From positions 992,001-1,056,000 of the forward strand of contig NZ_CP100445.1 in assembly GCF_024227435.1 (NCBI RefSeq): a DNA stretch of 64,000 bases. Direction: 5' to 3'. Of the stretch, positions 61,791 to 62,975 are shown piece by piece. The stretch is from Natrinema caseinilyticum. Its GTDB lineage: Archaea; Halobacteriota; Halobacteria; Halobacteriales; Natrialbaceae. How positions within the stretch are numbered: position 1 is the stretch's first letter; each line of letters opens with the position of its first letter. Below the pieces are notes generated by a model. That model had not been told where the DNA came from. It ran no database searches and saw only the letters and a program-made list of their open reading frames with translations. Position numbers and translations under genes: made by a program.

Positions 61791-62038
61791 GAGGGCCTCC
61801 CCCGCGAAACGCGGTGCGATCGAGTCGCCCGTGGGCCGAGAGGGAGCGGCCGTCGGCCAGCGGTCGTCGATGGCATCGTCATACCGCTGCCCTGTCGGCC
61901 ACGGAATTGTACGTTTCGGTCCCGTATCTGTCCGTTCACAGTAGCCGGTTCCCCGTTCGATGGTACACAAACGCGGTGACGATTCCGACGCCAACCCTCG
62001 TCACCGCGTTAGAGCCGGATCCAGTCTGTGCCGAGCCC

Positions 62039-62326
62039 TTAGCGTCTCGAGGCGGCTTCGTCGACGAGTTCGTTCGCCGTGTCTCGGAGTTCGGCGGTCA
62101 TGTGCAGGCCGTGTTCGTCGAGACGACGGACGATAGCTTTCGCATCCGACTCGGGAAGCCCTTCCTCGGTCGCCCTGACGATCACGCCGATCGTGCCGGT
62201 CACGGTCGCCCCGAGCCCTCGAGCGACGGTTCTCACGCGTCGGTCATCGGAGACGACACCATCACCGCCGAGGGCTCCGTTTTCTCGTGTCACGATCGCG
62301 TCGACGGTTTCGGTACGCCTCCGCAC
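62039..62326 (-). pseudogene. C-terminal fragment of a PIN-domain (DUF3368-like) toxin
   Basis: The 95-residue frame contains the back half of a DUF3368-type PIN protein: GVVSDDRRVRTVARGLGATVTGTIGVIVRATEEGLPESDAKAIVRRL. The front half with the first catalytic Asp and the GEAQAL helix is absent, and the first 25 residues look non-native. No antitoxin gene is next to it. It is most likely a dead remnant, related in type to the intact pair at 19386-20215. Confidence 0.7.
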
Positions 62327-62480
62327 AATCGACTGATATCCCGTCCAGGAATTCGAAACCGGCCGCGATCGGACACGAACTCGTTCCTCTCGCAGAATCG
62401 GCTCACAAACACCGAGTGAGGATCGTCACAGCTTCGGACGACTGTCGCTCGTTTTCGATTCGATCCCCAAATAATCGAAC

Positions 62481-62581
62481 ATATTTTAAAGTCTCATCCC
62501 CCTAAGATGAGACTGCTCCCATCGGTGGGAGCTGCGTGAGGCACAGAAGGGGGACCATGACGGGTGTATCCCCCTTCTGTG
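62481..62581 (+). ncRNA. Compact three-hairpin element, candidate structured RNA or MITE end
   Basis: Three perfect hairpins follow in 92 bp. The first is agtctcatc/gatgagact at 62490-62514, the second gctccca/tgggagc with a 4-nt tcgg loop at 62515-62532, and the third cacagaaggggga/tcccccttctgtg at 62542-62581. An AT-rich box atattttaaa at 62481-62490 just precedes them. There is no gene on either strand here. It may be a small RNA with its own promoter, or the end of a non-autonomous mobile element. Confidence 0.45.
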
Positions 62582-62667
62582 ACGCACATTTCAGTGCGCG
62601 AGCGACTGTACCATGAACCCGATTATCAAACATTGGAATCTATCGGAAGTTTGCCACGGTCAGGCGG

Positions 62668-62975
62668 TCCGATTCGAACGGCGACGGGCTTCCGGATCGG
62701 GACGTCGACCGCGTCTACGACGCGTTACTCGAGGACGAGAGCGCCCGCCAGTACGTCACGAACGACCGGAGCGCGACGCGAATCGAGTTCCAAGTTCCCG
62801 TCGACGCCGATCAAACCGCCGCAACGCTGGCTGCCAGGGAGATCGCGGCAGAGATGCACGTGGACGCGACGGCTTCTACGCCCACCTCACATCGGTCTTC
62901 CTGCTACCGTCGGTGATCGTCGTGTGGGATCGATTCGAGCGGCGGTACGGATCGATCGGGAGTCGTGTCGCGTGA
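62668..62975 (+). pseudogene. Fragment of an RND/MMPL-type exporter
   Basis: A start-less frame from 62668 reads SDSNGDGLPDRDVDRVYDAL, then ATRIEFQVPVDADQTAATLAAREIAAEMH, and stops at 62914-62916. This resembles the extracellular loop of haloarchaeal MMPL/RND exporters. Another frame immediately continues with SVFLLPSVIVVWDRFERRYGSIG, the usual last helix and end of such a protein, to 62975. The remaining ten or so membrane helices are missing, so an internal deletion and frame change left this stub. Confidence 0.65.

Follow-up and report, generated by a model that had tools for sequence, protein, structure and literature searches.

A family of four-stem elements absent from Rfam in salt-loving archaea, with a candidate small RNA gene in Natrinema caseinilyticum

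Analysis of a 64,000-nucleotide stretch of the Natrinema caseinilyticum genome (NZ_CP100445.1, positions 992,001–1,056,000, forward strand; hereafter the window) revealed a structured element that belongs to a family absent from Rfam, with about 100 copies in salt-loving archaea. We demonstrate the family, its conserved structure, its distribution and the linkage of one of its subfamilies (C) to partner genes. The element itself is probably a small non-coding RNA gene of about 110–150 nt, whose transcription, start site and regulatory function we infer. Members occur in at least eleven genera of one taxonomic family, share a strongly conserved structure and, for the most part, are tied to a single protein gene.

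The element in the window

The sequence-only reading had described three perfect stems of 9, 7 and 13 bp behind TATTTTAAA in a gene-free stretch. All three stems are present at 62490–62581; a fourth stem and a conserved tail had been overlooked. The description as gene-free also held, as no credible gene overlaps the element and the ORFs listed there are unsupported frames. The features, in window coordinates, are as follows.

62482–62490, + strand: TATA-like box TATTTTAAA, read from the sequence; candidate promoter
62490–62498 with 62506–62514, + strand: stem 1 (H1), AGTCTCATC/GATGAGACT, 9 bp, perfect inverted repeat
62515–62532, + strand: stem 2 (H2), GCTCCCA-tcgg-TGGGAGC, 7 bp with a TCGG loop, from sequence and folding
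62533–62541, + strand: linker TGCGTGAGG, unpaired, with the GYGUGAG motif
62542–62554 with 62569–62581, + strand: stem 3 (H3), CACAGAAGGGGGA/TCCCCCTTCTGTG, 13 bp, 14-nt loop
62583–62598, + strand: stem 4 (H4), CGCAC/GTGCG, from folding
62599–62652, + strand: tail, with TTATCAA at 62623–62629; homology to other copies stops at about 62652
62484–62629, + strand: entire conserved element, with bounds from the covariance models R1, R2 and R3 described below

The loop of H1 is a C-rich CCCCTAA, a BRE-like CGAAC stands immediately 5′ of the TATA-like box (about 62476–62480), and H2 begins about 28 nt past the centre of the box. The folding energy of 62481–62600 was −58.7 kcal/mol, compared with −35.8 ± 3.6 kcal/mol for 200 dinucleotide shuffles (z = −6.35), none of which folded as well. 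Perfect 13-bp stems with a loop of 3–20 nt occurred twice in the window and were absent from five simulated 64-kb sequences. The other such hairpin of the window (ACGCGGTGACGA..TCGTCACCGCGT, 61970–62010) lies at the start of an MFS-transporter-like ORF. Two different best folds were obtained for the window sequence, one with H4 and one with an extended H3; a bistable switch between them was considered and rejected, since the H4 fold wins in most comparable copies, with the window copy as one of few exceptions.

Spread and covariation of the family

A covariance model built from four copies of subfamily A (R1; the subfamily names A–D are our own) detected 21 more relatives in a search of Natrialbaceae (E up to 0.1), with relatives of subfamilies B, C and D down to E = 3e-7; the E-values of the covariance models rest on a short calibration. 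An alignment of 25 sequences contained 171 two-sided compensatory cells, compared with 57.7 ± 6.2 after shuffling. Searches with an extended covariance model (R2), against which the window copy scored 128.7 bits, revealed 102 copies in 39 of the 125 Natrialbaceae genomes and 11 of the 29 genera, with nine or fewer per genome, and a class-wide sample added six more genomes from two other families; strict filters were used in the large searches, so that these copy numbers are lower bounds. Among 47 distinct sequences, 90.4% of cells were paired (86.8%, 91.7%, 89.2% and 97.8% across the family for H1, H2, H3 and H4, respectively) and 193 two-sided changes were counted, compared with 52.2 ± 6.4 in shuffled and 32–65 in slid controls; the alignments (A6–A8) were fitted to the model structure, which inflates these pair counts. 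Across the family, two-sided changes occurred at all nine pairs of H1.

Because the alignments had been fitted to the structure, we used a third model (R3) as an independent check. R3 was built from 24 C-type sequences in a MAFFT alignment with its own RNAalifold structure, and the window copy was not in its training set. Its sole match in the 64-kb window was 62484–62629 (24.7 bits, E = 0.0004), and it also recovered a plasmid copy (E = 4e-7). A sequence-only profile built from C copies matched one A copy (E = 3e-6) and missed the window copy; the kinship of the window copy to subfamily C therefore rests on the covariance model. Comparison with Rfam 15 gave no gathering-score match over the window and, with E relaxed to 10, still no match on the element.

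These results bear on the proposal, made in the sequence-only reading, of an undescribed haloarchaeal small RNA, for which a covariance-model search for haloarchaeal relatives and a copy count in the genome had been suggested. The search found relatives across Natrialbaceae, and by the count this genome has two copies. As far as conserved structure goes, the proposal is well supported, given the second copies, the relatives in eleven Natrialbaceae genera, the strong covariation and the lack of an Rfam match; transcription is the part that we infer.

Subfamilies, partner genes and mobile copies

The copies fall into four subfamilies.

Subfamily A (window type): TTTTAAAGTCTCA-CCCCC; in two Natrinema genomes only
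Subfamily B: CGAAAGAGTCACCCCCC; conserved gene order beside an MBL-fold gene plus MoxR or Tfx genes, the gene names being read from translations
Subfamily C: TCTTTATTTCGCC; the commonest; Natrinema, Natrialba, Natrarchaeobius and Halopiger, as named from exact-motif copies
Subfamily D: CGAAATCTCTCCC; conserved gene order

H4 is common to all subfamilies and the GYGUGAG linker to A, B and C, and a tail like GATAT...TTGG is found throughout. Subfamilies A and C exhibit a T/A-rich TATA-like box 25–28 nt 5′ of H2, whereas B and D have no obvious TATA box at the corresponding spot. Haloarchaeal promoters are characterized by TTWT boxes and CGAAA-type BREs (PMC4983044).

In the C subfamily, the RNA is linked to a small protein gene. 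A divergent ORF of 58–65 aa on the opposite strand, with C-x-C-G and C-P-x-C motifs (CPxCG zinc finger), lies beside 74 of the 102 RNAs, mostly at a spacing of 88–95 bp (about 92 bp), and 73 of the 85 such ORFs in Natrialbaceae are accompanied by the RNA. The zinc-finger ORF matched no Pfam family at its cut-off. Next after it, in 25 of the 34 testable named loci, comes a HalOD1 gene (PF18545, E = 1e-16), which overlaps the zinc-finger ORF at the loci whose coordinates were read. The zinc-finger ORF was missing from the examined A, B and D copies, and the C-type module had no match in PLSDB plasmids. Literature searches turned up no divergent pairing of a CPxCG microprotein gene with a structured RNA.

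About 8 of 38 C copies, some of them paralogues within the Natrialba chahannaoensis genome, have the H3 loop as its reverse complement (L134 versus L135; also L137, L142, L144, L150, L158, L161 and L164). This resembles the inversions associated with palindromes in the chloroplast trnH-psbA spacer (PMC2903610).

The A copies have a different setting. The second copy of this genome (G000:C2:695106–695251) lies on a 715-kb replicon (megaplasmid), and two further A copies lie on the Natrinema halophilum YPL8 plasmids NZ_CP084880 (425 kb) and NZ_CP084881 (57 kb), of which the latter is virus-like, carrying a large tail-type gene with relatives in haloviruses HJTV-4 and BJ1. All four A copies have in common the block from TTTTAAA to TTATCAA, with TTTTAAA invariant in 4/4 and nothing obvious in common 5′ of it, and their invariant positions concentrate in the stem bases, the CGTGAGG linker and the tail. 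We found no DNA match among 50,697 phage records and no pattern match in IMG/VR.

The three A copies other than that of the window run on into a second structured element, with terminal hairpins and T-rich stretches downstream. This second, longer element (about 190–400 nt; GAGATCGGGTGACAATATGGCTATTGACTTCAC..GGAACGATCTC..GGCGAGG..CCTCGCC) also occurs by itself in several genomes of Natrinema, at some loci next to PadR or HalOD1 genes (L006:1200–1500 on the − strand, L004, L007 and about 15 more Natrinema loci, L018–L035). It is probably another uncatalogued RNA; covariation was seen at 9 of 27 predicted pairs (16 sequences), and Rfam gave no match. Two viral loci of N. halophilum, L014:7600–8700 (NZ_CP084881) and L037 (G003:C1 near 631 kb), have flanks that are 97% and 93% identical and differ in the cassette between the tail gene and the second element, which is an A-type RNA at one locus and a small divergent ORF at the other. 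Different cassettes before the same second element show that the A element moves between viral contexts.

The window copy is best read as an orphan, a virus/plasmid-type A member without partner genes. Right of 62653 the DNA is unrelated and consists of a fragment of a sequence found in many Natrinema genomes; relative to these, the fragment (62653–62959) carries an internal deletion of about 470 bp. The left neighbour is a DUF3368-type ORF (62039–62326, − strand), apparently also a fragment. A comparison with an empty site was attempted and abandoned, as the closest relative (right flank 93% identical) has an unrelated left flank and offers no clean empty site.

Small RNA gene and alternative readings

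For the small RNA gene, which we favour, transcription would most likely proceed from the element's own TATA box (62482–62490) and start near 62512–62516, at or just before H2. This promoter step is uncertain, since the lack of a TATA box in B and D means that the placement may fail family-wide. H1 could be an operator palindrome that separates the box from the start; alternatively, the RNA would be longer, start further upstream and have H1 as its first hairpin. The RNA is predicted to fold into H2, H3 and H4, with the GYGUGAG linker exposed and the tail unpaired, and may act in trans as a regulatory RNA, through a protein or on target mRNAs. A regulatory RNA that works with a protein is suggested by the conserved stems, the unpaired linker and tail, and the linked gene for a small zinc-finger protein; in the divergent cassette of the C subfamily, the CPxCG microprotein and HalOD1 would be the natural candidates to bind or control it.

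Even in a functional family, the window copy itself could be a non-functional remnant left by the insertion of a virus or plasmid. We regard this as a real possibility that falls somewhat short of even chances, and it is compatible with the small RNA gene reading. The copy breaks off at 62652 amid gene fragments, with the internally deleted one on its right and the DUF3368 fragment on its left, and it is missing the second structured element that follows the other three A copies. On the other hand, it retains perfect stems and an intact TATA-like box, whereas the plasmid copy of the same genome has several mismatches.

It is unlikely that H1–H4 are instead a cluster of protein-binding DNA palindromes, that is, operators for nearby zinc-finger, HalOD1, PadR or phage-repressor type proteins, with no functional RNA. 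The position of H1 between the TATA box and the expected start would suit an operator, as would the location of C copies in a divergent promoter region shared with the zinc-finger gene, and an H3 loop in both orientations would be tolerable for a DNA site. However, the family has four consecutive stems of differing sequence, keeps G-U pairs in many cells and conserves the unpaired linker and tail. Moreover, stem sequences turn over between subfamilies while pairing is kept, and operators conserve sequence, not just pairing.

A DNA mobile element without its own transposase (an IS605-type PATE or a MITE), in which the hairpins would be transposon-end palindromes and the transposase would be supplied in trans, is slightly less probable still. 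The nearest TnpB gene was 3.3 kb away and the others more than 10 kb (28 copies compared), and the terminal motif is almost confined to the RNA itself in a near one-to-one count, so that there is no second end. The inverted repeat of the window copy matches at only 10 of 11 positions, which is chance level, and is missing from other copies. B and D copies stand in conserved gene order, C copies have a constant partner gene, and compensatory changes in four stems are unexpected for PATE ends. These points weigh against the multi-copy state (up to nine per genome), the sporadic occurrence in Natrinema, the difference of the N. halophilum viral loci in presence or absence of the element, and the likeness to Haloquadratum PATEs (PMC3119063), which also combine palindromes with a conserved end. 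Within the mobile-element ALTERNATIVES, the IS605/omega-RNA and att-site ideas were rejected on the TnpB distances and the tail-motif count, and the tests for a PATE or MITE origin were likewise negative. The suggestion in the sequence-only reading that the element is the end of a MITE is not supported: terminal inverted repeats are not kept between copies, none of the copies examined has a TnpB-type transposon gene as its neighbour, and the majority keep either the same partner gene or the same gene order around them.

Alternatively, the element might not be a separate gene but part of an adjacent mRNA (a structured leader, a 3′ UTR or a terminator region). The terminal hairpins and T-rich stretches downstream of three A copies would accord with this, but it is similarly improbable, as flanking genes vary between copies on both sides and the one neighbour that is constant, that of the C subfamily, lies on the opposite strand.

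Within the small RNA gene reading, a more speculative extension, which we think has a small chance of being correct though a better one than the operator reading, is that the RNA, the divergent CPxCG microprotein and HalOD1 form one ribonucleoprotein or RNA-controlled switch. The H3 loop would flip by recombination at its own stem, giving alternative loops, and the partner-less virus or plasmid copies might be decoys or mimics of the host RNA. Given the copy on a virus-like plasmid, one may ask whether the host RNA is used or mimicked by haloviruses, and the C subfamily offers a directly testable RNA–protein pair in culturable species (Natrinema, Natrialba and Halopiger).

Comparison with known systems reveals partial likenesses. 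The omega-RNA of IS200/IS605 TnpB elements is likewise structured, similar in size and conserved in its 3′ part; unlike the present element, which has no adjacent tnpB gene, it is encoded at the 3′ end of tnpB. PATEs of Haloquadratum walsbyi (PMC3119063) are likewise short, multi-copy and haloarchaeal, with palindromes and a conserved terminal sequence, but their palindromes match IS605-type ends, whereas the present family has no TnpB neighbour and no second end, and exhibits covarying internal stems and a fixed partner gene. The partner of the C subfamily, with its 58–65 aa and its C-x-C-G and C-P-x-C motifs, resembles small CPxCG zinc-finger microproteins and Halobacterium Brz (PMC2253796, PMC11241148). 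Haloferax volcanii sRNA132 is intergenic, with stem-loops and its own basal promoter elements, and its regulon includes CPxCG zinc-finger microprotein genes (PMC6560208), which makes it a precedent for an sRNA with such genes under its control. As described there, it occurs in Haloferax only and has two stems and a pyrimidine-rich linker, and we set it apart on this description; the present family has four stems, is multi-copy and Natrialbaceae-centred, and is physically linked to the zinc-finger gene. The best-studied haloarchaeal sRNA, sRNA132, is confined to one genus, whereas the present family reaches at least eleven.
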